Origin: Oscillospiraceae bacterium
GTDB taxonomy: Bacteria > Bacillota > Clostridia > Oscillospirales > Acutalibacteraceae
Direction: 5' to 3'
Assembly (NCBI GenBank): GCA_031270605.1
Contig: JAISXG010000022.1
Coordinates: 1-64,000 of the forward strand
Length of the DNA stretch: 64,000 nucleotides
Notes under the pieces: model-generated
Told to the model about the DNA's origin: nothing
What the model saw: only the letters and a program-made list of their open reading frames with translations
Databases searched by the model: none
Shown: piece after piece, positions 9,526-54,760 of the stretch
How the letters are laid out: each line of letters starts with the position of its first letter
How positions within the stretch are numbered: the first letter of the stretch is position 1
Translations under genes and position numbers: made by a program

Positions 9526-9539
9526 GCGGCACCTCCTTT

Positions 9540-11478: not shown

Positions 11479-11483
11479 AATAT

Positions 11484-39699: not shown

Positions 39700-39775
39700 G
39701 ACCCAGTAGCTCAGCAGGCAGAGCACCTGCCTTTTAAGCAGGGTGTCCGGCGTTCGAATCGCCGCTGGGTCACCA
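39700..39775 (+). tRNA. tRNA-Lys (anticodon TTT), CCA encoded
   Basis: 76 nt: acceptor GACCCAG/CTGGGTC, D-arm GCTC/GAGC, anticodon stem CCTGC/GCAGG with loop CTTTTAA (anticodon TTT), T-arm CGGCG-TTCGAAT-CGCCG, and an encoded terminal CCA. The island repeat begins two bases later, so the tRNA 3' end is the integration landmark and remains intact. Confidence 0.97.
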
Positions 39776-39777
39776 AT

Positions 39778-39838
39778 GGAAACTTATAAGAACTTTTACT
39801 TCTTTACAGGCGGTTTCGCCATAACAATGTTCTTATAA
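39778..39838 (+). repeat. Left attachment repeat (attL candidate)
   Basis: 57 of 61 bases are identical to 54652-54712. It contains TTATAAGAAC (39784-39793) and GTTCTTATAA (39829-39838), a perfect 10-bp dyad, as expected around a serine-recombinase crossover. In the recombinase frame it reads KLIRTFTSLQAVSP then stop, that is, it encodes an alternative C-terminus of the recombinase. Confidence 0.8.
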
Positions 39839-39851
39839 ATTTAAACAGAAA

Positions 39852-39891
39852 AACAAGCGGTCAGGGTGATAAACCTTGACCGCTTGTTTTT
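39852..39891 (+). terminator. Terminator next to the left attachment repeat
   Basis: ACAAGCGGTCA.GG pairs with CC.TGACCGCTTGT, followed by TTTT. It occupies the same place relative to the repeat as the terminator at 54726 does to the right copy, so the homology of the two ends extends past the 61-bp repeat in structure. It also terminates tRNA/secG transcription. Confidence 0.85.
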
Positions 39892-40096
39892 GTGAAAATT
39901 TTATGTTATTATTAAAGTAAATATTATAGTAATAATGGGAAGCTAAGAAATGATGTTGTAAAAAAATAAATTTCAAAACTGTGAAATAGCATGGCCTTCC
40001 AGTAGTGTTAATTATCTTACGAGAGAAATGTTTTTCGTGAGTAAAGTCCCAAAAGTTGGTTGTCATATGCAATCGACTTTTTTTCTTTTTTAAGTA

Positions 40097-40125
40097 TTGA
40101 CAAAATTAATATATTTGTATACAAT
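40097..40125 (+). promoter_or_regulatory. Promoter of the DUF1413-methyltransferase-nuclease operon
   Basis: Consensus -35 TTGACA (40097-40102), 17-nt spacer, -10 TACAAT (40120-40125). An imperfect-centre palindrome CAACA-T-TGTTG (40134-40144) lies at the predicted transcription start, overlapping the region just before the SD, and could be an operator. The preceding 39892-40096 is AT-rich with nothing recognisable. Confidence 0.7.
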
Positions 40126-40160
40126 AATATTAACAACATTGTTGAAGGAGAGGTGTTAAA

Positions 40161-40394
40161 ATGTTTAATGTAAATGACTTATTGACCATTGCCCAAAATG
40201 AAATAAACTATGTTAATGTCGGAGAGACGTTTTTACTCAAAGAGCTTTTTAAGGGATATGAATGGAATAGGATTAAAATTAGCGATAGATTATTATTGGG
40301 AACTTTATTTTTAAATTATGCTAATACAAATGCCGATAAAATAATTGCATTGAAAAAAACATCATCAAATCAACAAAAATATAAAAGGATTTAG
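40161..40394 (+). CDS. DUF1413 family small protein (77 aa)
   Basis: MFNVNDLLTIAQNEINYVNV then GETFLLKELFKGYEWNRIKI and DRLLLGTLFLNYANT: the ETFLLKELFKGYEWNRI plus LLLGTLFLNY pattern is that of DUF1413, small proteins common on plasmids and integrative elements of Firmicutes, possibly DNA-binding. GAAGGAGAGG precedes the ATG. It is first in an operon, 11 bp before the methyltransferase gene, so it may regulate or assist that system. Function unknown. Confidence 0.75.
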   Translation: MFNVNDLLTIAQNEINYVNVGETFLLKELFKGYEWNRIKISDRLLLGTLFLNYANTNADKIIALKKTSSNQQKYKRI

Positions 40395-40405
40395 GAGGTG
40401 CTGTC

Positions 40406-43400
40406 GTGAATAACTCTTTGTTGATTCAAGCCTATAAAGACTTGGAATATAATAAAGGCGAATTGATTTATCTGCAAAGTCAAGATATGCCTCTGGGTCG
40501 TGAGCTTGATATAGGAGAATGGATTATTTCTTGTAATATAATCAACAAAAAGTCAAGTAAATTCGCTGTCGAATCAATATTCTTTGTTAAAGATAATCCA
40601 ATAATTATTTTTGGTACCTGCCATTCAACAGATGATACAGATATTGAACAGGCATACATTAATGTATGGAATTTGGCTCGCCCACAGTATTTCTTTTTAG
40701 AGGCAAACGGTGAATTAAAAGTATATGATTTTTCTGTTCCAATTAAAACTCTAAATGGGAAAAGGGTTATTCCAAAACCCATTGAACTAATAAAAACAGC
40801 CAATGATATTTTACGAAAATTGCAAAATCTTTCGAGAAATAAAATTGAAGCAGGAATAGCAAAGCTTAACAAAGATAATAAGCAATACAGAGCAGACAAA
40901 ACGTTAATTAATGATATTAAAAAAATACGAGTTGAACTAATGAAACTTGGGCTTGATAGTGACAAGATAAAATATGCCCATTCTATTATCGGACGCTCAA
41001 TATTTATACGATATTTAGAGGACAGAGGAATACTTACTAACGAGTATTTTTCTACTTTAGCATCTCAAAACAAAGAATGGAAAAACATTTTAGTACTACC
41101 TTTGGACAGTTGCTTAACTTCTGATGCTAAAGCAAATGACAACTATATTAAATGTTTAAGAAATAAAGACTTTACATACGCTTTGTATAGAAAGCTATCT
41201 CAAGATTTCAATGGAGATATGTTTCCTATTGATGAAACAGAGGAAAGTATTGTAACATCTGAACATTTACTAAAAATATCGGATTTTCTCCAAGGAAAAT
41301 TTGATGAGCAGTTGCGCTTGTTTTTCTGGTCATATAAATTTGATGTCATTCCAATGGAATTGATGAGTAATTTATATGAGGAATTTTATCATAAGCAAAC
41401 CGAAAATGATAGCAATGGAACGCACTATACTCCATTATCTTTAGTTGAATTTGTAATTAAGCAAGCTCTCCCTCCTGAGGTGTTGGAGAGCAACCCTATA
41501 GTACTTGACACTTGTTGCGGTTCTGGAATTTTTCTTGTAGAATCATTTAAAAGAATCGTAAGGTATAATATTATTAAAAATAATGGCATTTTGTTGACCT
41601 ATGAACAGCTAAAAGAAATATTAAAAAAACAAATTCGTGGTATAGAGTTAGAAGATGAAGCATTAAGAGTTGCTGCTTTTAGCTTGTATGTTGCATTTCT
41701 TAATTTTCAAGAACCACCGTGTATTCTTGAGCAAATAAAAAAAGGTAAATATTTGCCTAATTTAAAATGTAATAAAAATATTTCGTCATCTTTTGATATT
41801 CTCTTATGTGAAGATGCTTTCTCTGACGAAGCCACATATTTTATAGGTAAACAAAAAGCAAATATTGTTGTTGGAAATCCGCCGTGGGGAGAGGCAGATA
41901 AAAGTGCCATTGAATGGTGCAAAACCAATAAATTACCGCTTGGAGATAAAGAATACTCGCAGGCTTTTATTTGGCGTGCAACACAATGGACTGAAAGCGA
42001 CGGTGCAATTTGCTTGTTGCTTCCTGTAAGTGTTTTTTCTAAATCAAGCCCTCAGAGTAACCTTTTTAAAAAAGAATGGTTTAGTAAAACCACTTTATTA
42101 CAAATCGTAAACTTTGCTCATTCAAGAAATGTTTTTTTTCAAAAAGCTACTGCACCATTTGTATCAGTATTGTTTAGACCACAGAAGCCTGTAAATGATG
42201 GGGTTATCTTATATTGGTCTGCTAAAAAAAGTTCCAAAAACATAGAGCGACAGTATATTGTTCTCGGAAAATCAGATATGCATTTTATAAAACAAAGCCA
42301 ATTTTTAGATTGCAGCTATGCTTGGAAAACATTATGGTGGGGAGGACTTTCTGATTTGTCTTTAATTGGAAAATTAAAAGCTAATAACTTAACTATAAAA
42401 TCAGTGGAAAAGAAATCTTCAATAATAAAACAAGGATTTACCCCTGGCAAAGGCAAAACAAGAAGTATTGAAAAATTATCAAAATTTAAGAAGTTATCCT
42501 TGAACGGTTTGGTGTCTTTTGGGATAATCGACAAATTCCTTGTTGATGATTTGCCTAAAGAATTACATCGGAATTTTAGCAGCTTTGAAATTTTTGAAGG
42601 CAATCGCATTATAGTAAAGCGTGGAATATCAAAAAAAGGTATAATAGTATCACGAGTTGAAAGTGTTCCCTTTTCGTTTACGACTGATATTCATTGTATA
42701 AAATTTCAAAATAGCAACGATGTTTTATTGAAAAGCATCTGTGCAATATTACTTTCTTCAGTTGCTAAATACTATTTCTTTTTAACTTGTAGTGGTTGGG
42801 GTATGTGGCATGATGAAATACATCTTGATGAATTGGAGCAGTTTCCCATTCCGACTATCAACGAAAACAAGCACACCAAAAAACTGTGCTTGTTAATGGA
42901 TGAAATCAAGGAATATGAAGAAATAACCATCGACTCACCTGTAAACAAAAATCAACGTAACTTTGAAGCTATAATAAAGGATATTGATGAAGTCGTTTTT
43001 GAAATGTATCAGTTGACCGATGAAGAAAAAGCATTGGTCACCGATATGTGTTCATATGGCTTAGATTTGTTTTACAATAAAACCGACAGTATTGCAATTA
43101 AAGAATTACCTATTGTTTCCGGTGAGCTTTGTGGCACTGAAAAAAGTTTGTCTGTTAAAAGGCATTTGATTTACAGTTATATAGATAAAGTTGTATCTAC
43201 TATTAACGAATATTTGGCAAATATCAACGCTGAGTTAGAATGGAGAATTCATCGTTCGAAAGGCGTAATAGCGATATCATTTTTAACCAAATATATAAAT
43301 GACCCAGTTGGTATTGATTATGAGAGTAAAGGTGATTGGGAAATAGCTCTACAGGAATTTAGTAGACTGAGCAAACAAGCTGTTATAGACGACATTTATA

Positions 43401-43558
43401 TAGAAGGGTCTTTTATCGGTGTGTCTGATAATTGTATTGTTATTATTAAAAAGGATGAACGTAGAAATTGGTCTGCTGGTGCAGCCGTTAAAGACTTGAA
43501 TTCCATTTTGTTAAAGTTGATTGACAAACAATCGGTGGAGGTGAACGGATATGAATAG
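40406..43558 (+). CDS. Large N6-adenine DNA methyltransferase (type IIG/Eco57I-like, 1050 aa)
   Basis: Class I amino-methyltransferase core: HYTP motif (about 339), AdoMet-binding VLDTCCGSGIFLVE (about 364-377), catalytic NPPWGEAD (about 491), CLLLPVSVFS, then a TaqI-like target-recognition region ending SGWGMWHDEIHLDELEQFPI (about 795-815) and an extra C-terminal domain of about 150 aa (WRIHRSKGVIAISFL; IYIEGSFIGVSDN). The N-terminus (1-130) has the EQAYINVWNLARPQYFFLEA and NGELKVYDF shape of restriction-subunit N-domains but no visible D/ExK triad. The start is GTG 40406, 5 nt after AGGAGGTG. It overlaps the nuclease gene by 8 bp, suggesting a two-protein restriction-modification or defence complex. 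Confidence 0.85.
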   Translation: MNNSLLIQAYKDLEYNKGELIYLQSQDMPLGRELDIGEWIISCNIINKKSSKFAVESIFFVKDNPIIIFGTCHSTDDTDIEQAYINVWNLARPQYFFLEANGELKVYDFSVPIKTLNGKRVIPKPIELIKTANDILRKLQNLSRNKIEAGIAKLNKDNKQYRADKTLINDIKKIRVELMKLGLDSDKIKYAHSIIGRSIFIRYLEDRGILTNEYFSTLASQNKEWKNILVLPLDSCLTSDAKANDNYIKCLRNKDFTYALYRKLSQDFNGDMFPIDETEESIVTSEHLLKISDFLQGKFDEQLRLFFWSYKFDVIPMELMSNLYEEFYHKQTENDSNGTHYTPLSLVEFVIKQALPPEVLESNPIVLDTCCGSGIFLVESFKRIVRYNIIKNNGILLTYEQLKEILKKQIRGIELEDEALRVAAFSLYVAFLNFQEPPCILEQIKKGKYLPNLKCNKNISSSFDILLCEDAFSDEATYFIGKQKANIVVGNPPWGEADKSAIEWCKTNKLPLGDKEYSQAFIWRATQWTESDGAICLLLPVSVFSKSSPQSNLFKKEWFSKTTLLQIVNFAHSRNVFFQKATAPFVSVLFRPQKPVNDGVILYWSAKKSSKNIERQYIVLGKSDMHFIKQSQFLDCSYAWKTLWWGGLSDLSLIGKLKANNLTIKSVEKKSSIIKQGFTPGKGKTRSIEKLSKFKKLSLNGLVSFGIIDKFLVDDLPKELHRNFSSFEIFEGNRIIVKRGISKKGIIVSRVESVPFSFTTDIHCIKFQNSNDVLLKSICAILLSSVAKYYFFLTCSGWGMWHDEIHLDELEQFPIPTINENKHTKKLCLLMDEIKEYEEITIDSPVNKNQRNFEAIIKDIDEVVFEMYQLTDEEKALVTDMCSYGLDLFYNKTDSIAIKELPIVSGELCGTEKSLSVKRHLIYSYIDKVVSTINEYLANINAELEWRIHRSKGVIAISFLTKYINDPVGIDYESKGDWEIALQEFSRLSKQAVIDDIYIEGSFIGVSDNCIVIIKKDERRNWSAGAAVKDLNSILLKLIDKQSVEVNGYE

Positions 43559-44219
43559 ACCGAGTTTCCAATCTATTGATATTTGGGCAGAATGGGAAAA
43601 AGACATTTTGATGATATTGGTTGAAGCCCTTCCCTCCTTATGTAATGTAAACGATATGACAAATGATGAAAATGACATAACGGTACAATTATATAAAATA
43701 ATACTTACCGTAAGATACAACAAGCAAAAAATCACTTTTGGCAACATTGTTCTTCAAACGCAGAACCAGCCTGTTAATGCGTTATGCGTATCCGAAAATG
43801 AATCAAGTCTTCGTAAAAAGCCCGATTTATTATGGGTATTTAATGATGAAAATGCAGATACACCAGAAAAATCACAACGCTATTTTACGATAGAATGCAA
43901 ATGCCTATCCACAACGGCAGACGATAAAAATTATGTTGAGAAAGGTATTTCACGCTTCATCCTAAATGACTGGGGTTATGGTAGAAACGAAAAAAGTGCT
44001 GCAATGATTGGCTACATAAAAGATATTAATTCCAATGTGCATTTATGCAGAGTTGTTGAACATAGCAAAAAGCATAATTACCCTGAAATTCTCGAGTATG
44101 TTTGTGAAAACAAGCATGTTTATCGGTACACACAAACTTTTGAAACTCGTGAGTTTGAGCCTCGGAATTTTACGTTGCATCATTTATGGACACACATTGA
44201 TGATCATTTTAAAAAGTAG
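43551..44219 (+). CDS. PD-(D/E)XK nuclease-like restriction protein (222 aa)
   Basis: The core motif is clear: P91-D92 in LRKKPDLLWVF and E115-x-K117 in YFTIECKCLS, separated by 22 residues as in PD-(D/E)XK folds. An N-terminal helical part (WAEWEKDILMILVEALPSL) and a C-terminal HHLWTHIDDHF complete the protein. Its ATG lies inside the end of the methyltransferase gene (8-bp overlap), so production is coupled. Together they form a plausible restriction system in which the nuclease acts in trans to a large methyltransferase/specificity protein. Not recognised as a named restriction enzyme. Confidence 0.75.
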   Translation: MNRPSFQSIDIWAEWEKDILMILVEALPSLCNVNDMTNDENDITVQLYKIILTVRYNKQKITFGNIVLQTQNQPVNALCVSENESSLRKKPDLLWVFNDENADTPEKSQRYFTIECKCLSTTADDKNYVEKGISRFILNDWGYGRNEKSAAMIGYIKDINSNVHLCRVVEHSKKHNYPEILEYVCENKHVYRYTQTFETREFEPRNFTLHHLWTHIDDHFKK

Positions 44220-44334
44220 AGCAGTTTAGGATATAGTGCTTTTTGATGTATGCCAAACTTCGTCTAATATTTATAATGGACAGGCGTATAGTATTTAACC
44301 GAAGAATAAATGTGATTTTCACAGAGGAAAACTT

Positions 44335-44880
44335 ATGAGTAACAAAAAAGCAAGAAAGAAGACCGATTCTAAACCCAATACGACTCCGCATTTATTACCA
44401 GTTAATATCGACTATGATAAATTGGCTGAGGCATTTATAAATGCACAGGAGCAGAGGAAAGAAAAGTCTATGGAAAAAAGTAGCAAGAAAATTGGATTTT
44501 TCAAGGGTGTATGGCTTATTCTGCAGGGCAAGAATGATACTCAAGACCGTATGACAATGGGATTTATGGCAATTCTTTTGACCGTACTTTTTAAGACAAT
44601 TTCAATTATTGGATTTTTATCTGTACCGATTAGCGCCTATGTAATAATAAAACAAATGTTAGCTATGACGTGGACTATCGGCTGGAATCTTATGGAAAAT
44701 ATTATAGGCATTATATTATTTGCATCTTTCTTATTTATTATATTCATTTTTTCTGTACTGATTTGGGGTGCATCAAAGGAAATAGAAAAATCAGAAGATA
44801 AACACTTTGTAGTTGCTGTCTTTTCAGGAATTATTAGCCTCGTGGCTTTAATTATATCGTTGATTGCCCTTAAACAATAA
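44335..44880 (+). CDS. Membrane protein (181 aa), unknown function
   Basis: A basic, charged cytoplasmic N-terminus (NKKARKKTDSKPNT; LAEAFINAQEQRKEKSMEK) is followed by three to four TM helices (FMAILLTVLFKTISIIGFLS; IIGIILFASFLFIIFIFSVL; VVAVFSGIISLVALIISLIA). 115 bp after the nuclease gene, same strand, with weak SD (GAGGAAAAC). It could be a membrane effector or accessory of the restriction-like cassette, but no motif proves that. Confidence 0.65.
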   Translation: MSNKKARKKTDSKPNTTPHLLPVNIDYDKLAEAFINAQEQRKEKSMEKSSKKIGFFKGVWLILQGKNDTQDRMTMGFMAILLTVLFKTISIIGFLSVPISAYVIIKQMLAMTWTIGWNLMENIIGIILFASFLFIIFIFSVLIWGASKEIEKSEDKHFVVAVFSGIISLVALIISLIALKQ

Positions 44881-45161
44881 ATATTATATATAATTTATGA
44901 CATTAATCTGTTCTCTTAAGGCTTGCTTGGCACGGCGATAAAGTGATAAAAAGAAAAACGCTAATATCGAAGCAATATTAGCAATTTATGAACAATATAA
45001 TTATGCTTGCCAATCATGAGCATACCCGTCAGAACGGAATTATATCCATGAACTGCTCATTATGTTTATTAACGTACATACAAATGCCAAATACAATTTA
45101 TACTCTATTCCCTGTTACTCTGTTTTGAATAATTGCACGAAATATTAGAAGGAGGTTTCCC
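44881..45161. other. Intergenic region with relic coding sequence
   Basis: Plus-strand fragment about 44945-45020 reads DKKKNANIEAILAIYEQYNY then stop, resembling part of a HTH protein from a mobile element; it has no SD or start and is probably a relic. GCTAATAT/ATATTAGC forms an 8-bp hairpin within it. The remainder is AT-rich; no consensus promoter was identified before the flavoenzyme gene. Confidence 0.35.
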
Positions 45162-46646
45162 ATGAAAAAGAAAGTTATCGTCATAGGGGGCGGTATTGCG
45201 GGGCTGAGCGCGGGTGTCTATGCGTTAAGGTGCGGCTTTGACGTTACCGTTTTGGAAAGCCATAGTATAGCGGGCGGGAACTGTACGTCATGGAAGCGAA
45301 GCGGTTATCTCTTTGAGGGCGGTATGCACTGGCTTACGGGTTCCAGTAAAAAAGAACCCATCTATAAGATGTGGCGTACTGTGGGGGCGCTGAACGACAG
45401 CATTCAGATCCACTGTTCTGAACCCTTCATAGAATATGACTACGAAGGCACGCCGATCCGTTTCTACAGGGATGTCGATACTACAGAAAAACACTTGATT
45501 TCTTTGTCACCCGAAGATGCAAAAGAGATAAAAGCACTATGTAACAACATTCGCAAAGTAAAAAACCTTGCTATGCCTGTTACCGATCTGCGGGGTGTCA
45601 AAGTGACAAAAAAGACTCGTCCACCAATTTCTCTGCTTTTTAGCGCCATTTCTGCTATGAGAACCATGGGTTCATTTTCTAAAATCTCCCGAGATGAGTA
45701 TGTTGGAAGATTTGTCCATGAGGGGTTACGCGAAATGCTTCGCTCCTTAACAAACGAAAAGACTGGTGTGTTGCCACTGTTTTTTACGATGGGTGCTCTT
45801 GCCCGGGGTGATGGTGGCTTCCCCGAAGGGGGATCATTGCCATTCGTCGGTCGAATTGTTGATACTTTCCAGTCACTGGGCGGTGAACTTCTTTTGAACA
45901 CAAGGGGCGACCGTGTTATTGTTGAAAACGAAAAAGCGGTTGGTGTAATGGTGAACGGCAAAAACATGCCTGCTGACGCCGTGATTATCACATCCGATAC
46001 CATGTCAATCGACCGCCTGTTTGACACTCCTCCCAAAGCTCCCTGGCTGGAGGCAATGCATGCTGTGACCGAGCCTACGATGGCTATCTTTCTATCTCTC
46101 GGCATAAAGGCTGACTTGAAGAAATATCATAAGGGCCTTGTTTTCAAGCTTCAGCAGCCGATTTCCTTGGCGAACCAAAAACATGAATACCTGAGTGTCA
46201 ACAACTATGCATCTGATCCAGTCTATTCTCCTGAAGGAAAAACCGCTATTACTATTATCTTAGATGGTGACACCTACGATTTTTGGAAAAAAGCAAAAGA
46301 AGAAAACAGATATGTGGATGAAAAACAAAAGCTGGCTGGGGTAGTGATAGAGGCGTTGTCCAAGCTGGTTCCTGAAATCGAAGGGCAGGTAGAGGTCTGC
46401 GATGTTGCAACGCCGTTAACCTACGAACGCTACTGCAGCAATTGGAAAGGTTCCTGGATGACTGAAATGACGCCAAGCATGAAGATGAAGAGCTACCCGG
46501 CTGCTATCAAGGGGTTGTCCGGCGTATACTTCGCGGGACAGCGCATGATGCCACCCGGTGGCCTTCCTGTTGCGCTAATGACTGGTCGGACGGCTGTTCA
46601 ATATCTATGCCGCGATACAGGTACTCTATTTGTCAGTGAAGAATAA
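45162..46646 (+). CDS. FAD-dependent oxidoreductase, phytoene-desaturase/CrtI-like
   Basis: A 494-aa flavoprotein. The Rossmann start KKVIVIGGGIAGLSAGVYAL (dinucleotide-binding GxGxxG), VLESHSIAGGNCTSWKRSGY and FEGGMHWLTG match the CrtI/CrtN/retinol-saturase group; a C-terminal FAD-binding segment (YFAGQRMMPPGGLPVALMTG) is present. The SD AGAAGGAGG is ideal. Its base composition is visibly less AT-rich than its island neighbours, so it was probably acquired separately. No carotenoid synthase gene is near; the substrate could be a lipid or terpenoid. Confidence 0.82.
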   Translation: MKKKVIVIGGGIAGLSAGVYALRCGFDVTVLESHSIAGGNCTSWKRSGYLFEGGMHWLTGSSKKEPIYKMWRTVGALNDSIQIHCSEPFIEYDYEGTPIRFYRDVDTTEKHLISLSPEDAKEIKALCNNIRKVKNLAMPVTDLRGVKVTKKTRPPISLLFSAISAMRTMGSFSKISRDEYVGRFVHEGLREMLRSLTNEKTGVLPLFFTMGALARGDGGFPEGGSLPFVGRIVDTFQSLGGELLLNTRGDRVIVENEKAVGVMVNGKNMPADAVIITSDTMSIDRLFDTPPKAPWLEAMHAVTEPTMAIFLSLGIKADLKKYHKGLVFKLQQPISLANQKHEYLSVNNYASDPVYSPEGKTAITIILDGDTYDFWKKAKEENRYVDEKQKLAGVVIEALSKLVPEIEGQVEVCDVATPLTYERYCSNWKGSWMTEMTPSMKMKSYPAAIKGLSGVYFAGQRMMPPGGLPVALMTGRTAVQYLCRDTGTLFVSEE

Positions 46647-46814
46647 GCGCACATTAGAATTATATACTATAGAAATAACATTATCTGATTTCCCATTATG
46701 TTTATGATAGACAAACACATAATAACAATAATAGGAAGCTCAACTAAGGAATAGTTTTGGATATAACGGGAATGGGGAGTTTTTACGTATAAAGATATCG
46801 ATATAGCTTCTGAG

Positions 46815-47573
46815 GTGGAGTCAAAAGGATATAAGGAAGGATATAAACTCCATCAATATATTATAAATTCCTTTATACAATGTTTGTTTTTTGCTCAATT
46901 AAATTGTTCAAGAAGCGATAAACTTGAGAATAGCTTATTCTTCCTTTCCGTTATAGATGATATGTTTCAATCAATTGTGGGTATTGCATGTTTATCTGAG
47001 CAAGGGATTAGAAATACATGTAGACGAGAATTAAGATATCTACTTGAATTAGCAATAAAGGCATGTGTTGTATCTCAGAAGTATTCTGACAAATCGGTTA
47101 GTGAGCAAATAGCTGAATACTTTGGTATTATTAAATCAACAAATATTTCTATGATTAAAGAAATTGATTTTTATTTTTTTGATAAAGATTTGAAAGATAA
47201 TTTTATTTCCGAGTCATTACGAATGTATGGAGATTTATGCGCTTATGTACACTCTACGCCAAAACAAATGCAAGAAAGAATTGGTTTAATGCAAAAAGGT
47301 AGATATATAGGTTTTGAAGGTGTAAATGAATTAAAAGAATTAAATAAAGAGGTATCAATAACGCTTTCCTTTGTTTTGGTTTTGTTTTTCCATGCTATAC
47401 CAGAGTGGTGTGTTGGTGATTATATTGTTGAAAGAGATGGTACCACCGTAAATTCTTACTTTTCAAGGTCAAAATATTTTGCGGCAATTGATTCAATATT
47501 TGATTATAAACAAGAACGCCAAGGACACTTAGATACAGTGAAAGCGTGCAGAGAGAAAAAAGTTGCCTTTTAG
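46815..47573 (+). CDS. Alpha-helical protein, DUF5677/HEPN-like (252 aa)
   Basis: Mostly helical. The pattern GIRNTCRRELRYLLELAIKA ... DLCAYVHSTPKQMQ, with a conserved RxxxRE helix and a YVHS motif about 110 residues later, resembles DUF5677/HEPN-fold proteins that sense or cut RNA in defence and toxin systems. The start is doubtful: GTG 46815 has only GAGG immediately adjoining; a better SD/ATG (46772, after GGGA) is in another frame and reaches TAA after seven codons, so a frameshift near the 5' end is possible. It lies alone between the flavoenzyme and a recombinase relic. Confidence 0.5.
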   Translation: MESKGYKEGYKLHQYIINSFIQCLFFAQLNCSRSDKLENSLFFLSVIDDMFQSIVGIACLSEQGIRNTCRRELRYLLELAIKACVVSQKYSDKSVSEQIAEYFGIIKSTNISMIKEIDFYFFDKDLKDNFISESLRMYGDLCAYVHSTPKQMQERIGLMQKGRYIGFEGVNELKELNKEVSITLSFVLVLFFHAIPEWCVGDYIVERDGTTVNSYFSRSKYFAAIDSIFDYKQERQGHLDTVKACREKKVAF

Positions 47574-47631
47574 GCTCTAATTATTTATAATTAGCCGGAA
47601 CCTTTACTGGTATCTTAATTGTCTAATATGT

Positions 47632-47874
47632 TTAGAAAGCCATAAACATCATGGCTAAGGGATTGGCGTTAACGGCAGCGTGTAGTTGCTTATCATCGAT
47701 ATGTGTATAAATTTTTGTAGTAACTATACTCTCATGTCCAAGAAGCGATTGAAAAGATCGAATATCAATATGCCCATATTCATACATCAGTGTCGCGGAT
47801 GTGTGGCAAAGCTTTTGAGTGGACAACTTTATTGGGTTGACGCCCGCTGCAACAATGTGCTTTTTGATAACATT
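47632..47874 (-). pseudogene. C-terminal fragment of a tyrosine recombinase
   Basis: The frame (after a TAA at 47875-47877) reads VIKKHIVAAGVNPIKLSTQK, LCHTSATLMYEYGHIDIRSF, QSLLGHESIVTTKIYTHIDD: unmistakably the catalytic C-terminus of a Xer/phage-type integrase. The HxLRHT motif has become QKLCHT, losing His and Arg, while the later HxxH/W-region GHES and the nucleophile Tyr (IYTH) remain. No N-terminal part is present. A relic of an earlier integrated element. Confidence 0.85.
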
Positions 47875-47930
47875 TTAAATTGATCGGGGCGTTAGTTAGC
47901 ATTTGTTAGGCTTTTTAATTTGCTCTGCAC

Positions 47931-48461
47931 TTACTTCAGGCCAAATTGTGTTTTCATTGTAACCTTATCGCCTTGAAAGGTGATGCTTGCATTGCCTAAC
48001 GAATTTGAACTTTCCCACATATACATTTTTGTGTTGTATTCAGCGCCCATGTCTAAATCAACTTCTGAAAGCAATATACCAGTGCTGCCAATTATATTAC
48101 AGACTTCTTCATAAGACATGCCAGTTTCTATTTTGTTAAACATCGAAAGAGTTATTCCGGTTTGCTGATGAACTCCATTTGCAGGCGCTGTATCATCAAA
48201 AAATACAGGAATCAAAAAAAGTCCTCCAAGACATAATGCAACTATAACCAAACATGCAATCAGCATACTTTTTCTTGTCTTTTTAGACTTTACAGCTGAG
48301 TAACCACACCGCAGACAATAATTATTTCTCAGCCATGCACCACATTGTATACACCTTTTATCAATGTCGCCGACCGAAACCGTTGAGCATCCGCAATAAA
48401 CACAATTTTCCGATTCATTGCTAATTTCCCTTCCACATTCACGACAGTTTATCATTGCCAT
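47931..48461 (-). CDS. Zinc-ribbon membrane protein with SmpA/DUF3862-like domain
   Basis: A 176-aa protein: MAMINCRECGREISNESENC and VYCGC (first ribbon, four Cys), a second ribbon RCIQCGAWLRNNYCLRCGYS, one TM helix (MLIACLVIVALCLGGLFLIP), then an extracytoplasmic domain (ITLSMFNKIETGMSYEEVCN, YMWESSNSLGNASITFQGDK) similar to DUF3862/SmpA-OmlA beta-lactamase-inhibitor-like repeats. The ATG at 48461 is set by GGGAGGT 6 nt upstream. Common in Clostridia and Lactobacillales; function unknown. Confidence 0.75.
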   Translation of the reverse strand: MAMINCRECGREISNESENCVYCGCSTVSVGDIDKRCIQCGAWLRNNYCLRCGYSAVKSKKTRKSMLIACLVIVALCLGGLFLIPVFFDDTAPANGVHQQTGITLSMFNKIETGMSYEEVCNIIGSTGILLSEVDLDMGAEYNTKMYMWESSNSLGNASITFQGDKVTMKTQFGLK

Positions 48462-48621
48462 TTTCAGACCTCCCATATTTTTTATACACTGCACTATTTT
48501 TTTACTTCTTCCTCATATCCTTCCAAGGGTACGGCAGATATCGACATGTCGATATGTATTTGAATTATATGACGATAGCCCGATAAAGTAAATGGATATA
48601 GAGAAAGGTTATAGCTCTATT

Positions 48622-49158
48622 TTAGGATTTCTCTTCCAACCTATGAGCCATTTGTAATTGCGGAAGAACACTGGATAGCGCTGCTTTCCATTCCAATACT
48701 TTTTCGTTCATGTTTTTTCTGTTTTGGCCGCTGGGTGAGGACACGCGAATATAAGGGATAGTTGAATTCTTAAAAAACCTACGGAAATATTTATACGCAC
48801 CGTTACTATGAAATAAAAGAAGTTTGATATTGGGATACGTAGCAAGAAGTTCGGGAAGCTTATTCTTTTCTTCATTTTTAAGGTCTTTATCGTTAGAGGT
48901 TTTTCGCACCGCCGATTCCACTACATCCCAAAGGGCTATTTTATATTTTTGAAGAAGCGCGGCTTTTTCTGCAACTGTTTTTGGTAGCGGTTCCTCACAT
49001 GCTCCGGCTAAGATACCCCAGAATTTATTTGTGGGGTCAGAATAATATTGTTTTTGCTCTGCTGACGCCTGACCGGGCAGTGTTCCCAAAATAAGCACAA
49101 CGGAGTCTGGGCGAATATCCGGGTCCAAACTTTTGGTTCGTTTTAATTCCTCATTCAT
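48622..49158 (-). CDS. DNA-deoxyinosine/uracil glycosylase family protein
   Basis: A 178-aa protein of the uracil-DNA-glycosylase superfamily, HDG (family 6) type: LILGTLPGQASAEQKQYYSD (active-site GTLPG...S), NKFWGILAGA, IALWDVVESAVRKTSNDKDL and the minor-groove loop VSSPSGQNRKNM. Related enzymes excise hypoxanthine (deaminated adenine) or mismatched U. Transcribed from a consensus promoter divergent from an XRE gene. As island cargo it may protect element DNA or reflect a link with the base-modifying neighbours, which is speculation. Confidence 0.82.
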   Translation of the reverse strand: MNEELKRTKSLDPDIRPDSVVLILGTLPGQASAEQKQYYSDPTNKFWGILAGACEEPLPKTVAEKAALLQKYKIALWDVVESAVRKTSNDKDLKNEEKNKLPELLATYPNIKLLLFHSNGAYKYFRRFFKNSTIPYIRVSSPSGQNRKNMNEKVLEWKAALSSVLPQLQMAHRLEEKS

Positions 49159-49265
49159 ATAATTTTATCATTCCCCACAAAATATTTATATAGTTTATGT
49201 TTAATCTTGGGCAAGAATGAAGTAACTACCTGCGCCAAACAAGCCATATAAGATGTTATTTTTAT

Positions 49266-49294
49266 ATTATAAACCAAATAAAATGTGAAGTCAA
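49266..49294 (-). promoter_or_regulatory. Promoter of the DNA glycosylase gene
   Basis: Minus strand -35 TTGACT (49289-49294), 17-nt spacer, -10 TATAAT (49266-49271). The perfect inverted pair TATAAGATGT (49247-49256) and ACATCTTATA (49296-49305) brackets this promoter, and ATACAT/ATGTAT lies at 49294-49313, suggesting control by the adjacent XRE protein. Confidence 0.65.
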
Positions 49295-49320
49295 TACATC
49301 TTATAAAATGTATATTATTA

Positions 49321-49350
49321 TTGCTTACATGATGAGAGGTGTGTAAGCAA
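49321..49350 (+). promoter_or_regulatory. Inverted repeat enclosing the SD of the XRE gene
   Basis: TTGCTTACA (49321-49329) and TGTAAGCAA (49342-49350) are perfect 9-bp arms; the loop holds GAGAGGTG, the SD, and the second arm includes the A of the ATG. As RNA it would place the start codon at the base of a stem; as DNA it would be an autorepression site. Confidence 0.55.
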
Positions 49351-49682
49351 TGAAAAGTATCAATGAAATGTTAAAGGATTTGAGAGAAGATAAAGATTTA
49401 ACACAAAGGGATATTGCAAAACTGTTAGGTACAACGCAACAATATTATTCCAAGTATGAGAGTGGACATAAAGAACTGCCTATTCGTCATCTAATTACAT
49501 TAGCAGATTTTTATAAAGTTCCTGCTGATTTGATATTAGGCAGAATTGAATACGCCGCAGTAAAAGCTGATAACTCTGAATACACAAAGTGGGTAAAAGG
49601 GATAGCGGATTTAAGCCCGGAAAATAAAAAGGCTATATTTGATTATATTGAACTTCTAAAGTTGAAAGATAAAAAACAGTAA
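49350..49682 (+). CDS. XRE-family HTH regulator (110 aa)
   Basis: HTH at about residues 5-62 (MLKDLREDKDLTQRDIAKLL, TTQQYYSKYESGHKELPIRH, LADFYKVPADLILGR) followed by a short C-terminal helix (DLSPENKKAIFDYIELLKLK). It is a typical Cro-like regulator of integrative elements. The start is fixed by GAGAGGTG inside the inverted repeat. Divergent from the glycosylase gene; probably controls it and itself. Confidence 0.85.
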   Translation: MKSINEMLKDLREDKDLTQRDIAKLLGTTQQYYSKYESGHKELPIRHLITLADFYKVPADLILGRIEYAAVKADNSEYTKWVKGIADLSPENKKAIFDYIELLKLKDKKQ

Positions 49683-49866
49683 TAACCTATGGTCTGTTAA
49701 GTTCGTAATTTAACACGGTTTTTATGGCTATTTTGGATTTTAACTGAGCAGAGTTTTTTTACCTCCAAAAAAGCCAAAAAATCCATGACATAATAAAAAA
49801 GCGGCTATAATTGACTAACCGCTCAAATGATTTGTGACAATAAATTGTTTGCGACTGGAGTAAAAT
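49683..49866. terminator. Terminators between the convergent XRE genes
   Basis: At about 49795-49823, AGCGG and CCGCT enclose a 14-nt loop; on the minus strand this is followed by TTTTTTA, giving a terminator for the gene at 49867. No comparable strong stem is seen directly after the plus-strand gene. The rest of this stretch is AT-rich without a gene. Confidence 0.5.
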
Positions 49867-50526
49867 TCAGTCGTTTTTTTTCGTTTGCTCAAAATTAGTT
49901 TTTAACCTTAATTCCTCGATTCTGTCTTTTGGAATATCCTTTTTCAGTTGCACAACATCATTTTGAATAAAGCCTAATTCCGCCAACTCTAACAGGTCTT
50001 TATTATATGGAGTCGTATCAAATTCTGCACCTTCAAGTAACCCCAAAAATGCTTTGTCTTTATAGACTATTTTCCCTGCAATCATATATTGATTTGTTAA
50101 ATATCGAAATAAATGAGCGAACAAATCAGTTTCCTCTTCATAGTGATTTTCTATTAAAATGCTAATGATTTCTATCTTCCAATGGTTGGAATCCCTCTTG
50201 TTTAATGTTCTTAATTTCTTGATTGCTTCTTCTGTTAGCCCTGTTTCCAACTGTATGAAATTATTTTTTGGATTTTCACAATCATGCTTGCCAAAAAAAT
50301 AATTTGGAGAGATGTCCAGAGCTTCCGTAAGTTTTTGAATATTTGTATATCGCGGCTCTCGGTTTTTTGTGAACCAATCAGTAATAGCAGATGATGATAT
50401 TTTTGATTTGCCTGCAAGTTCTTTTTTTGTCATTTTTCGTTTTTTCATTATTTTGAATAATCTTTGTATCCATTCTCTGCTTTCACCGGGTGCTAATGTC
50501 ATTTCTCTGCCCTGCCAGTTTTCCAT
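49867..50526 (-). CDS. XRE-family HTH regulator with C-terminal domain (219 aa)
   Basis: N-terminal HTH (about 20-85: WIQRLFKIMKKRKMTKKELA, KISSSAITDWFTKNREPRYT, ALDISPNYFFG) with a helical C-terminal domain of about 120 aa (KKLRTLNKRDSNHWKIEIIS, YLTNQYMIAGKIVYKDKAF, KDLLELAELGFIQNDVVQLK). No S24 peptidase dyad is visible, so it is not a LexA/CI-type self-cleaving repressor. AGGGG upstream of the ATG. It is divergent from the primase-like operon, whose promoter region carries two matching operators; probably the island's repressor. Confidence 0.8.
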   Translation of the reverse strand: MENWQGREMTLAPGESREWIQRLFKIMKKRKMTKKELAGKSKISSSAITDWFTKNREPRYTNIQKLTEALDISPNYFFGKHDCENPKNNFIQLETGLTEEAIKKLRTLNKRDSNHWKIEIISILIENHYEEETDLFAHLFRYLTNQYMIAGKIVYKDKAFLGLLEGAEFDTTPYNKDLLELAELGFIQNDVVQLKKDIPKDRIEELRLKTNFEQTKKND

Positions 50527-50544
50527 ATACTATACCCCTTCATA

Positions 50545-50562
50545 AATCCGATATATCGAATT
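50545..50562. promoter_or_regulatory. Candidate operator O1 in the divergent control region
   Basis: AATCCGATATATCGAATT contains the perfect palindrome CGATATATCG and matches the second site AATCC-N8-GGATT at 50665 in arm sequence and spacing. It lies just before the start of the minus-strand XRE gene, which suits autorepression. Confidence 0.5.
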
Positions 50563-50605
50563 AAAATCAACAAAAAAATAAATTTGTACGAATGATAAAA
50601 TATCT

Positions 50606-50634
50606 GTGACACAGCAAAATTTATCCTGTATAAT
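50606..50634 (+). promoter_or_regulatory. Promoter of the primase-recombinase side
   Basis: -35 GTGACA (50606-50611), 17-nt spacer, -10 TATAAT (50629-50634). Operator candidate O2 (AATCC-N8-GGATT, 50665-50682) lies about 25 bp downstream of the predicted start, where a bound repressor would block elongation. Confidence 0.6.
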
Positions 50635-50664
50635 AGCGATTGTTAACTTCATATCCCAAACCAT

Positions 50665-50682
50665 AATCCAGTATATAGGATT
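50665..50682. promoter_or_regulatory. Candidate operator O2
   Basis: AATCC (50665-50669) and GGATT (50678-50682) with an 8-bp AT-only centre; same arm spacing as O1 at 50545. Confidence 0.5.
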
Positions 50683-50732
50683 TTAGTTAAAAAATCAAGT
50701 TCAATTTTATTATAGAAGAGGAAGGATATTTC

Positions 50733-50900
50733 ATGATGGATACAACGCCACGGGTTGAATTATCAGACAAGCAAGTGGAGCAATTGGCTTTTGCGTTGTA
50801 TCCGTCCGCGATGGATTTCTGTAAAAAAGCTATGGATAACTCAAAAAACAAGAAAAAGGAGTGTCAGTCAGATGACAAAGAAAAAAAAGACAAATCTTAA
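50733..50900 (+). CDS. Small hypothetical protein (55 aa) upstream of the primase-like gene
   Basis: Two tandem ATG codons after GAGGAAGGA open MMDTTPRVELSDKQVEQLAF, ALYPSAMDFCKKAMDNSKNK and a lysine/aspartate-rich tail ending KKDKS. Its last 29 nt overlap the start of the DUF3987 gene in another frame, giving translational coupling. The ELSDKQVEQLAFALYPSAMDF segment is like short proteins encoded before primase-like genes in Firmicute elements. Coordinates carry an uncertainty of a base because of a long A run near the end. Confidence 0.55.
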   Translation: MMDTTPRVELSDKQVEQLAFALYPSAMDFCKKAMDNSKNKKKECQSDDKEKKDKS

Positions 50901-53070
50901 CCATGAAAGCAAAATCGCCGTTATGGTAGACCCTGTTACGTTTAAGGAAAAACCGAGTGCCAAACAGGTAGCGGGAATTAAACCGCGATTATTGACCGAG
51001 GGGGTTAGCTACCTTACGATGGGGCAGATTATCGACAGAATCAAAGCAGGACATACCATTTGTCCCGGCGTGCTGGAGGGTGGTGCAAAGGCTGGTAACT
51101 GGATAAGCCAGCAGTTGTTTATGGTGGATATCGATAACAACGCTAATTTGCCGTACTTGACTCCAGAAAGGGCGATGGAAATCTGTAAGGATAACAAGTT
51201 ATCCCTTGCCTTTTATTATTTTAGCTTTTCCCATTCTAAAGATAAACCAAAGTTTCGCTTGTGTTTTATTACTGATGAAATCATAAAGGACGAAACAACA
51301 CGCAATAACATAATGCAAACACTCATTTCGTACTTCCCCCAAAGTGACCGCTCATGTAAGAACGCCGACCGCTTTTTTTATGGCACAAATAAAGAGGTGC
51401 GTATTTTGGATTTAGAAGCGCGTATTTGCCTCGCAAATTTTACGCATGAGTTTTCATTGCCGGATAGTGCAACCGGCCATACGCGCCAAAATAGGAGCAA
51501 TCGGCTCCTTGCTGATTTGATCAGGTCATTTGATTTTCTTGATTATCTGAAAAAACGCAACGGTAAAATCACATCAGATAGTGGAAACACTGTCCATTTT
51601 GAAGATTGTGAAGTGTGCGGACACCATGATAACCTTGTGTATTTCAAGAATACAAACACCTTCTACTGTTACTCGCCTGATGGCAAACAAGGCGGAAGTA
51701 TCATTGATTATCTTATGATAACTAAAAATATGGACACAGCCCAAGCAACCAATTATTTTATAAACAGCTTGTGCGAGACGGACAATTTCCTGGAATGGCA
51801 GCCACCTGTTCCATTTATCGAGGTAGCATCACCGCCGTTTCCCATTAAATCGTTACCCACTCCATTAAGAGATTATGTTTTAGCTGTGGCAGAAACAACG
51901 CAAACACCTGTTGATATGGCTTCTGTTGCTATATTGGCAGTTATGGCAGCATGTTTACAAGGCAAATTTAAAATTATGGGAAAGCCTGATTGGTTTGAAC
52001 CGCTAAATATATATTGTATTATTGCCGCCAATCCCGGCGAGCGCAAATCCCCTGTAATGAGACATTTAACGGAGTGTTTGCATGAATATGAGAAACAAAT
52101 AAAGCCCTTACGATTAATAGCAGATAATTCGACGCCTGAAGCTCTAACAACGGTGCTTGCAAATAATGGCGGTAATTTATCAATCATTTCAAGCGAGGGC
52201 GGAATATTTGATATATTGGGTGGAGCATACAATAATAGGGTAAATATTGACACCCTGTTAAAGGCCCATGACGGTGACCTTATTTGTGTAGACAGAAAAG
52301 GCAGGGAGACAGAGAGGATAGAAAACCCCGCTCTTACGATTCTATTAACTGTTCAACCTCATGTTTTAAACAAATTTATAAGTAACGATATTTTTCGAGA
52401 CAGGGGGTTGGTGGCAAGGTTTCTATACTCTATGCCGCCCTCAAAGGTAGGAACCCGACGCTATAAAACTAAAGCGATACCGCAAGAAGTAAAGGATAGG
52501 TATAAAAAACTTTGTTTCAAACTGCTTAAAATCAAAGCGAGAGAACCGCAACTACTAACGGTGAATTCCAATGCAAACAGAGAATTAGAGGATTTTTTTA
52601 ATGAATTGGAGGCTAAGCTCAAAGATGATTTTGAGGATATTGTGGATTTTGCGAGCAAGCTGCATGGTAGGTCATTGAGAGTTGCAGGAATTTTGCACAT
52701 CGTAAAATATGGTGATGCTGCGCAAAATAAACCTATTTCCAGTCAAACCGTGCGAGAAGCAAAAGAAATAGGGCTGTATTTTTTAGAGCACGCAAAAATC
52801 ATATATAGGTTATCGGGTGGAACCACACTGCAAAAACAGGCAATATACATATTGAGGCAATTGAAAAAGTATCCTGAGCGAGAATATATACCGAGCGCAA
52901 TAAAACGAATCTGCCGCGGCGTATTTAATAGGACAGAGGATATTATGCCCGCTTTGGACTTACTGGTGGAATACGGATATCTACAGGAACGGTACGTTCC
53001 CTATAAGCAATTTGGTGGTAGGCCACCCGCGAATAAATATGTGCTCAATCCCCTATATTTTGATGAATAA
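50872..53070 (+). CDS. DUF3987 primase/ATPase-like replication protein (732 aa)
   Basis: Three parts are visible. An N-terminal primase-polymerase-like domain (about 15-185) has FMVDIDNNANLPYLTPERAM (acidic DxD) and HSKDKPKFRLCF, then FFYGTNKEV. A CHC2-like zinc finger (about 210-250) reads CEVCGHHDNLVYF ... FYCYSPDGKQGGSIIDYLM. A DUF3987 helicase-like ATPase (about 290-590) has the Walker A variant AANPGERKSP, SEGGIFDILGG and LTVQPHVLNKFI. The ATG at 50872 with GGAG upstream is preferred over a TTG at 50755 that overlaps the small gene. This protein likely initiates replication of the excised element or supports its maintenance. Confidence 0.82.
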   Translation: MTKKKKTNLNHESKIAVMVDPVTFKEKPSAKQVAGIKPRLLTEGVSYLTMGQIIDRIKAGHTICPGVLEGGAKAGNWISQQLFMVDIDNNANLPYLTPERAMEICKDNKLSLAFYYFSFSHSKDKPKFRLCFITDEIIKDETTRNNIMQTLISYFPQSDRSCKNADRFFYGTNKEVRILDLEARICLANFTHEFSLPDSATGHTRQNRSNRLLADLIRSFDFLDYLKKRNGKITSDSGNTVHFEDCEVCGHHDNLVYFKNTNTFYCYSPDGKQGGSIIDYLMITKNMDTAQATNYFINSLCETDNFLEWQPPVPFIEVASPPFPIKSLPTPLRDYVLAVAETTQTPVDMASVAILAVMAACLQGKFKIMGKPDWFEPLNIYCIIAANPGERKSPVMRHLTECLHEYEKQIKPLRLIADNSTPEALTTVLANNGGNLSIISSEGGIFDILGGAYNNRVNIDTLLKAHDGDLICVDRKGRETERIENPALTILLTVQPHVLNKFISNDIFRDRGLVARFLYSMPPSKVGTRRYKTKAIPQEVKDRYKKLCFKLLKIKAREPQLLTVNSNANRELEDFFNELEAKLKDDFEDIVDFASKLHGRSLRVAGILHIVKYGDAAQNKPISSQTVREAKEIGLYFLEHAKIIYRLSGGTTLQKQAIYILRQLKKYPEREYIPSAIKRICRGVFNRTEDIMPALDLLVEYGYLQERYVPYKQFGGRPPANKYVLNPLYFDE

Positions 53071-53132
53071 TCCATTTAGATTTAACCGCGAAAGCCTTAT
53101 AATTATCTTATCAAAAAAGGAGGTGGAGCCAT

Positions 53133-54698
53133 ATGAACGTGGTATTGTACGGGCGGTTTTCCTGTGAAAAGCAAAATGAGCAATCCATTGAGGGCCAGTT
53201 GGAAGCCTGCCGCAATTTCGCCAACTCAAAAGGTTATACGATTATTAATGAGTACACGGACGTTGCCATGTCAGGCCGGGACGATAAACGTCCCAGCTTG
53301 CAACGCATGGTGCAAGACAGCGAAAGCGGTATTTTTCAAGCGGTAATTGTATGGAAGTTCGACCGGTTTTTCCGTAGCTGCCGGTTGAGCAGTAAATACC
53401 GGGAGATTCTGAAAAACAACGGTGTTGACCTTATTTCGGCTATGGAGTATTTAGGCGAGGGACCCCAAAAGATTATTCTGCAATCATTATTTGACGGCAT
53501 GGCCGAGTTCTATTCCGCGAATTTAGCCGAAAACGTGATCAGGGGTATGGGGCAGAACGCCCAAAAATGCCTGTCGAACGGCGGTACGATCCCCCTTGGA
53601 TATAAAATTATTGATAAGCGATACCAGATAGACGAACAAACCGCCCCTTATGTAAAAAAGGTCTTTGAGATGTACGCAGGGGGAGAAAGGGCAATCGACA
53701 TTGCCGCGTATTTGAATGAACGCGGAATTCGAACCGCCCAGGGAGCAAAATTCAACAAGAGCTCGTTTAAGACGATGCTCCAAAACCCAAAGTATATCGG
53801 CATTTACTCTTACAGTGGCTACGCAACCGAAGGCGGTGTTCCCCGCATTATATCGGATGAACTGTTTAACGCGGTGGCCGAGCGGCTTCGAAAAAACAAA
53901 AAGGCCCCTGCAAGGGCCAAAGCCAATATGGAATACCTGTTGACGACAAAGCTATTCTGCGGACACTGTAAGGATTTGATGGTCGGCTCCAGCACCTCTA
54001 AGAAAGGCGGTGTATATTATTACTATTATGTTTGCAAAAGCACTATATTAAAAGCTAAAACCTGTGATAAAAAACGGGTTAACAAAGAGACAATAGAAGA
54101 ACTCATTCTCAAGTTGTGCCGGGAGCAGTTAGAGAATAAAAATATTGATAAACTCGTCCGAAAGATAAGCTCTATCAGTAAAAAACAAAAGGAAAGCCTG
54201 CATATCACTCGATTATCGGAGGCCTTGAAAAGTAATGAGGCGCAGCGAAAAAACCTTATGCAGTCTTTGAAGGAATGTGAATACGAGGGAGTCCGTAAAG
54301 GGATATACGCCGAACTGAACGACTTAGACAAGGCAAAAGCGGAGTTGGAAAAGGATTTAGCCATCGAGAAATCCCACAGTTTCATACCATCCGAAGAACA
54401 ACTCCGTACGTTTTTTCGGGTACTGAAAGCCGGGGACAAGGACGATTTAAAAACCCGTAAGGCATTGATTGACATTTTTATAAACGCGGTCTATCTGTAT
54501 GATGACAACAACGGCAGAAACCGAAAAATCACCGTAGTATTCAATAGCGGCAAACGCCCCGTGACCATAGAAAACATACCGATTGACGATATCAGCCTTA
54601 ACTTTGAAAGGCAGTCCAGTTATTATATCGAGGCCAAAGGTTCACCACACAGGAAACTTATAAGAACTTTTACTTTTTTACAGGCGGTTTCGCTATAA
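53133..54698 (+). CDS. Large serine recombinase (site-specific integrase)
   Basis: Catalyses integration and excision. The resolvase domain (1-145) has nucleophile Ser10 in YGRFSCEKQNEQSIEGQ, AMSGRDDKRPSLQRM, VIVWKFDRFFRS with catalytic Arg, and the recombinase domain (about 155-260: IPLGYKI, MYAGGERAIDIAAYLNERGI); the zinc ribbon (about 272-315, FCGHCKDLMVG and YVCKST...TCDK) and a coiled coil (about 335-410, ISKKQKESLHITRLSEALKS) follow. SD AAGGAGGTGG. Its last 16 codons lie within the right attachment repeat, so integration or excision exchanges its C-terminus (KLIRTFTFLQAVSL versus KLIRTFTSLQAVSP encoded at the left end). Confidence 0.95.
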   Translation: MNVVLYGRFSCEKQNEQSIEGQLEACRNFANSKGYTIINEYTDVAMSGRDDKRPSLQRMVQDSESGIFQAVIVWKFDRFFRSCRLSSKYREILKNNGVDLISAMEYLGEGPQKIILQSLFDGMAEFYSANLAENVIRGMGQNAQKCLSNGGTIPLGYKIIDKRYQIDEQTAPYVKKVFEMYAGGERAIDIAAYLNERGIRTAQGAKFNKSSFKTMLQNPKYIGIYSYSGYATEGGVPRIISDELFNAVAERLRKNKKAPARAKANMEYLLTTKLFCGHCKDLMVGSSTSKKGGVYYYYYVCKSTILKAKTCDKKRVNKETIEELILKLCREQLENKNIDKLVRKISSISKKQKESLHITRLSEALKSNEAQRKNLMQSLKECEYEGVRKGIYAELNDLDKAKAELEKDLAIEKSHSFIPSEEQLRTFFRVLKAGDKDDLKTRKALIDIFINAVYLYDDNNGRNRKITVVFNSGKRPVTIENIPIDDISLNFERQSSYYIEAKGSPHRKLIRTFTFLQAVSL

Positions 54699-54712
54699 CG
54701 GTGTTCTTATAA
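54652..54712 (+). repeat. Right attachment repeat (attR candidate)
   Basis: Matches 39778-39838 at 57/61 positions, with the same TTATAAGAAC/GTTCTTATAA dyad. It covers the last codons and stop of the recombinase gene. Just upstream GGTTCACCA mimics the tRNA-Lys 3' end GGGTCACCA. Confidence 0.8.
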
Positions 54713-54725
54713 GTACCAACAGAAG

Positions 54726-54760
54726 AAGCGGTAGGGGTTAAACACCTTTACCGCTTTTTT
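54726..54760 (+). terminator. Terminator of the recombinase gene
   Basis: AAGCGGTA.GGG pairs with CC.TTACCGC, followed by TTTTTT. Structurally equivalent to the terminator at 39852. Confidence 0.85.

Follow-up and report, generated by a model that had tools for sequence, protein, structure and literature searches.

A probable two-subunit relative of type IIG restriction-modification enzymes, with its nuclease on a separate gene, in an Oscillospiraceae bacterium

Closest described systems and operon layout

Type IIG restriction-modification (R-M) enzymes of the Eco57I, BpuSI, MmeI and DrdV kind carry a nuclease domain of active PD-(D/E)XK type, a helical region, a gamma-type N6-adenine DNA methyltransferase (MTase) and a target-recognition region (TRD), in that order, on one polypeptide; they cleave at a set distance from an asymmetric site, with stimulation by AdoMet. 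In type I and type III R-M systems (HsdM/HsdS/HsdR; Mod/Res), specificity lies in the modification part and a nuclease without specificity in another subunit. Two further enzymes have a related MTase + TRD core: CamA of C. difficile, known as an orphan adenine MTase (~577 aa, without an N-terminal pseudo-nuclease or the C-terminal module described below), and PglX/BrxX, the large MTase that is clustered with brxC, pglZ and others in BREX systems. Here we analysed a stretch of 64,000 nucleotides from an Oscillospiraceae bacterium (contig JAISXG010000022.1, positions 1 to 64,000; hereafter the window), and focused on an operon encoding a large MTase and, in an overlapping gene, a small putative nuclease. 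We consider it quite likely that they form a two-subunit, shared-specificity R-M enzyme related to type IIG. As far as sequence comparison can tell, this reading is carried by both motif sets and their invariance, by the obligate linkage and co-inheritance of the two genes, by swapping of the TRD and by the loss of the nuclease residues from the MTase.

The operon and the parts of its products are the following:

40097-40125, + strand: sigma-70-type promoter TTGACA-N17-TACAAT, matching the consensus at 11 of 12 positions
40161-40394, + strand: DUF1413 gene, 77 aa (PF07205, E 1.6e-19, Pfam)
40406-43558, + strand: N6-adenine DNA MTase/specificity subunit gene, 1050 aa, GTG start
40406-40855, + strand: MTase residues 1-150, predicted pseudo-nuclease domain, alpha-beta-beta-alpha-beta-beta, without a conserved E-x-K
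41351-42265, + strand: MTase residues 316-620, catalytic domain, with motif I D368-T-C-C-G-S-G and motif IV N491-P-P-W
42323-43000, + strand: MTase residues ~640-865, TRD, swapped or hypervariable among relatives, with a weak TaqI_C match at 723-815
43157-43555, + strand: MTase residues ~918-1050, family-specific C-terminal module, Y-x-I/V-K-P...R-x-W..S-x-A..D-A
43551-44219, + strand: small (putative) nuclease subunit gene, 222 aa, ATG start
43824-43901, + strand: putative active-site stretch of the small subunit, D92 ... E115-C-K117

The three genes are co-directional and lie downstream of the near-consensus promoter. An earlier note on this DNA, written from the sequence alone, had described the three open reading frames (ORFs), the 8-bp overlap between MTase and nuclease genes (43551-43558) and the consensus promoter, and all of them were found as described; the promoter was the top-scoring of 26 matches in the region, where 21 are expected at the 9/12 threshold. 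The palindrome that it had seen at the start site, AACAACATTGTT (40132), fared differently: 21% of region shuffles hold as many inverted repeats of that size, and hence it is not above chance.

The large subunit matched Eco57I (E 1.9e-15), N6_Mtase (1.3e-14) and MmeI_Mtase (3.1e-9) in Pfam, as well as two PADLOC models, PDLC03623 (E 5e-60) and PDLC03603 (E 6e-42), the latter near full-length (residues 59-1033). Taken alone, it would be labelled type IIG (REase_MTase_IIG) by PADLOC. The PDB structures nearest to its MTase + TRD core were CamA, PglX/BrxX, BpuSI, DrdV and MmeI, with CamA as the top match (E 1.4e-18, TM 0.71 over CamA). As in type IIG enzymes, gamma-type amino-MTase motifs are followed by a TRD in one chain. 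The adenine-MTase motifs proposed earlier, VLDTCCGSG (D368...) and NPPW (N491...), are both present, and all of the 79 aligned MTases share D368, C371, G372, S373, G374, N491 and P493.

The N-terminal domain had been described as nuclease-shaped yet without a visible catalytic triad, and this description holds. The order of its fold is nuclease-like, and it is homologous to the nuclease domain of type IIG enzymes (score of 34.1 between hidden Markov models (HMMs), compared to a shuffled maximum of 15.9). At the E-x-K position, however, the window protein reads G-T-C; E-x-K is not conserved in the 79 aligned MTases, and [DE]xK is found anywhere in a loosely defined stretch in 5 of them. Nine true type IIG enzymes (those of eight plasmid loci, L108-L115, and of locus L038) retain an N-terminal E-A-K or E-A-E. 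The comparison supports well the view that this domain is related to the nuclease domain of type IIG enzymes but has degenerated, losing its catalytic residues. Unlike a type IIG enzyme, the window MTase has no active PD-(D/E)XK domain in the same polypeptide, and cutting would apparently be provided by a separate, obligate gene. A second difference is the extra C-terminal domain, which had also been predicted and is supported by the alignment and a family-specific profile. All 94 matches of the profile of this ~130-aa module were MTase ORFs of the family; it was absent from the nine true type IIG enzymes (0/9), and no Pfam or PDB family matched it. The module would be an obvious candidate dock for the nuclease partner.

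The small protein and its linkage to the MTase

No family in Pfam, NCBIfam, PADLOC or PDB matched the small protein significantly. Five of its residues, E40, D92, E115, K117 and H211, are the same in all 76 small proteins aligned, at a mean column identity of 15%. Of the nuclease motif originally read as P91-D92...E115-x-K117, D92, E115 and K117 thus stood, while P91 is not conserved across relatives. The AlphaFold (AF2) model (pLDDT 85, pTM 0.84) runs helix(E40)-strand-strand(D92)-strand(E115-x-K117)-helix-strand, followed by a C-terminal sheet with H211, which is the core order of restriction endonucleases: D92 stands at the start of a strand, E115-x-K117 in the following one, and E40 in a helix. 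D and E-x-K on adjacent strands of an alpha-beta-beta-beta-alpha-beta core are the marks of the PD-(D/E)XK fold. When HMMs of the small protein and of type IIG nuclease domains were compared, D...E-x-K aligned with D...E-x-K at a score of 22.3 (maximum of 100 column shuffles, 17.4). Two structural results weigh on the other side: Foldseek of the model against PDB returned nothing at E<=0.001, and a match to an Mrr domain in a viral model library was weak (prob 0.87, TM 0.37-0.44), so that the fold class rests on motif and topology. Overall, a nuclease function is very probable for the small protein, and its fold is likely PD-(D/E)XK.

A profile scan of 84,980 genomes yielded 80 relatives of the MTase, 19-37% identical to the window protein, in Bacillota, Bacteroidota, Proteobacteria, Cyanobacteria, Dehalococcoidia, Nitrospirae, Planctomycetes, Patescibacteria and others, as well as in archaea (Methanophagales, Methanobrevibacter). 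An HMM of the small protein, seeded from 8 sequences only, placed the nuclease ORF directly 3' of the MTase and on the same strand in 78/78 relatives with a continuing contig; the remaining two (L060 and L081), whose contigs end at the MTase, were left out of this count. Junctions are commonly 1-, 4- or 8-bp overlaps, and the large negative gaps (-979, -340 and -160) resemble 5' over-extension of open frames. With the nuclease as bait, the picture was the same: among 399 genomes of its own phylum it was present in exactly the 5 that hold the MTase, and 11 of 12 matches in 198 Bacteroidota genomes abut an MTase, the twelfth (L130) being a remnant beside a transposase gene. L008/L016 is a broken, two-ORF copy of the MTase without nuclease. 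Distances between MTases and between nucleases correlate (r = 0.85; permutation maximum 0.08). The earlier note had suggested examining the conservation of the pair across genomes, and had named relatives with an unlinked nuclease as a finding that would speak against it. Whichever gene served as bait, the pair was linked in all informative relatives, and none of these loci had an unlinked nuclease; the apparent exceptions were the L130 remnant, the broken MTase copy L008/L016 and L051, with its insertion described below. By these comparisons, MTase and nuclease are a conserved, obligately linked and co-inherited unit.

The layout is unchanged in plasmid copies from Methylobacterium, Mameliella, Bradyrhizobium and Pseudomonas, which are annotated as 'N-6 DNA methylase' and 'hypothetical protein'. 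No nuclease-family ORF was found in the eight plasmid type IIG loci (L108-L115). The window MTase as query retrieved 39 plasmid relatives and no viral relative. Close relatives of the window nuclease were found in none of the viral contigs, phages or plasmids searched, and the Mameliella nuclease had no match in phages. The marginal match L002 was rejected as an unrelated lipoprotein-like ORF. In Cylindrospermum NIES-4074 (L051) a transposase-like ORF (10634-11218) is inserted near the nuclease start, and the sister loci L043 and L054 are intact.

The DUF1413 gene, which had been counted as part of the system, has no homologue in the other MTase/nuclease loci, and this ruled it out as a core component. 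Since its place is taken elsewhere by a LexA-, MerR-, XRE-, HTH_11/DeoR- or AbrB/MazE-type gene, or by none apparent, DUF1413 is most likely a replaceable local regulator, and its slot would be like that of the control genes found in many R-M systems. The gene just before the pair encodes a LexA/S24-type autocleavable repressor in three loci (L068, L071 and L086), a hint that damage may induce the R-M system in some hosts.

Target recognition and alternative readings

The assignment of a target-recognition region to the MTase, made in the earlier note, was borne out by the variability of residues ~640-865 between relatives. In L036/L050 and L030/L035 the MTase core is mostly ~65-90% identical and the nuclease 71%, but residues ~645-865 are only 16-42% identical. 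In L043/L051 the nuclease blocks outside the insertion are 86-100% identical, most of the MTase ~90%, and the TRD 36-48%. Across such locus pairs nucleases are 71-90% identical versus 16-48% for TRDs, indicating that TRDs are replaced beside a nuclease that is retained, and therefore that the small protein relies on the specificity of the MTase and carries none itself. Such a pattern marks nucleases that bring no specificity, like those of type I, III and IIG systems; it counts against a conventional independent endonuclease, and is indirect evidence that the small nuclease lacks the sequence specificity of a conventional type II restriction endonuclease. The resemblance to type I and III systems is nonetheless partial: here there is no helicase/translocase domain, the nuclease is only ~220 aa long, MTase and TRD form one chain, and no gene for a helicase/translocase restriction subunit is present in the operon.

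Four other explanations were weighed against the two-subunit enzyme. The best placed of them, although still very improbable, is a conventional type II pair, in which an independent sequence-specific endonuclease stands beside a large MTase and each recognises the site alone. Type II systems usually have adjacent R and M genes, and a PD-(D/E)XK protein of 222 aa has a size seen among type IIP enzymes. Yet the divergence of TRDs beside similar nucleases makes it unlikely that the nuclease sets specificity, the MTase still contains a nuclease domain, though a dead one, as well as the C-terminal module specific to its family, and the same partner family recurs in 78/78 loci, whereas conventional type II endonucleases are typically unrelated between systems. 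Next comes a modification-dependent or abortive use, to which we give little credence: a nuclease held by the MTase would act on host or wrongly modified DNA when methylation is disturbed. The LexA-type repressors preceding the pair in L068, L071 and L086 suggest damage-triggered expression there and would suit such a role, but most loci, the window included, have no LexA-type gene, and the layout of TRD, MTase and pseudo-nuclease fits ordinary type IIG restriction enzymes.

A BREX/PglX-like, modification-dependent exclusion, with the MTase marking self and a non-cleaving or accessory small protein, ranks lower again. PglX/BrxX structures are indeed among the MTase matches, and one copy of the pair (L013, G667:C30) is located inside a BREX type 1 locus (BrxC, PglX, PglZ, BrxL), between brxC and pglX. 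However, that locus has a separate PglX of its own, no brxC, pglZ or brxL is found beside the operon in the window, the window MTase scores 30.8 with the PglX NCBIfam model compared to a cut-off of 500, and its partner is a protein whose nuclease residues are invariant. The least probable explanation is an orphan epigenetic MTase similar to CamA, its best PDB match, accompanied by a small partner of another enzymatic class, e.g. a nucleotidyltransferase. Short polymerase-beta fragments did appear among the top Foldseek rows for the small protein, but these matches span ~52-60 columns with TM below 0.2, while the invariant E/D/E-x-K set and the topology fit PD-(D/E)XK, and HMM-HMM comparison aligns the protein to the type IIG nuclease motifs.

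We hence favour a two-subunit enzyme, and the type IIG-like enzyme with an outsourced nuclease proposed in the earlier note is supported by the linkage, the degenerate N-terminal domain, the invariant nuclease residues and the TRD divergence. In this enzyme, the 1050-aa subunit would scan DNA, recognise a probably asymmetric site by means of the TRD, and methylate adenine (N6) within it. Its N-terminal nuclease domain would have decayed to a structural or docking pseudo-nuclease, serving as docking surface or pseudo-dimer partner. The 222-aa PD-(D/E)XK-like protein, made from the overlapping gene and without specificity of its own, would be recruited into a complex with the MTase, probably via that pseudo-nuclease, the family-specific C-terminal module or both. 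We infer a cut geometry in which cleavage would take place close to sites lacking methylation, so that phage or plasmid DNA entering the cell would be restricted and the pair would serve in defence.

Genomic island and wider meaning

The operon resides on a 14.9-kb island at tRNA-Lys(ttt) (window 39700-54727), flanked by direct repeats of 76 bp:

39778-39853, + strand: left direct repeat, attachment-site-like, starting 3 bp after tRNA-Lys(ttt)
53133-54698, + strand: large serine recombinase (Resolvase 2.8e-28, Recombinase 1.5e-21, Zn_ribbon_recom 2e-11)
54652-54727, + strand: right direct repeat, overlapping the end of the recombinase gene, 88% identical to the left one

G+C content is ~0.45-0.58 outside the island versus ~0.30-0.35 over the operon, and the large serine recombinase is the probable integrase of the island. 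Further cargo includes a DUF3987 protein (50755-53070), helix-turn-helix regulators and possibly a 252-aa protein (46815-47573) with a weak likeness to DUF5677 (E 6e-4, below cut-off). A C-terminal remnant of a tyrosine (phage) integrase (47632-47826, - strand; PF00589, E 1.8e-7) suggests an older insertion in the same spot. Relatives of the pair have defence genes as neighbours, namely the BREX type 1 genes in L013, a type III Mod in L082 and type IIG enzymes in L038 and L071, and these surroundings speak for the two-subunit R-M reading. On a B. elkanii plasmid (L011), a second large Eco57I-domain MTase (DrmMI/type IIG-like, 8622-12007) adjoins the pair.

The recurrence of this unnamed pair in numerous phyla of bacteria and archaea suggests an R-M layout that is widespread and undescribed. 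The libraries and literature searched (REBASE not covered) gave no description of a split MTase/nuclease family, an absence that is no proof of novelty. We lean, with less confidence than for the two-subunit enzyme itself, towards a distinct R-M class present in both bacteria and archaea. It would be an obligate heteromer: the dead nuclease domain of the MTase would dock or pair with a specificity-free PD-(D/E)XK nuclease of an unnamed family, and specificity would be reprogrammed by TRD exchange. If they are a distinct class, such split systems would at present pass as type IIG enzymes or orphan MTases. Given that PADLOC sees the MTase only and that plasmid records say 'hypothetical protein', a probable restriction subunit has been missed across many phyla. 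The family would offer a natural experiment on the interconversion of fused type IIG and multi-subunit R-M systems. It might also serve as a scaffold for nucleases that can be re-targeted, because specificity and cutting apparently reside on different chains and TRDs are swapped in nature.

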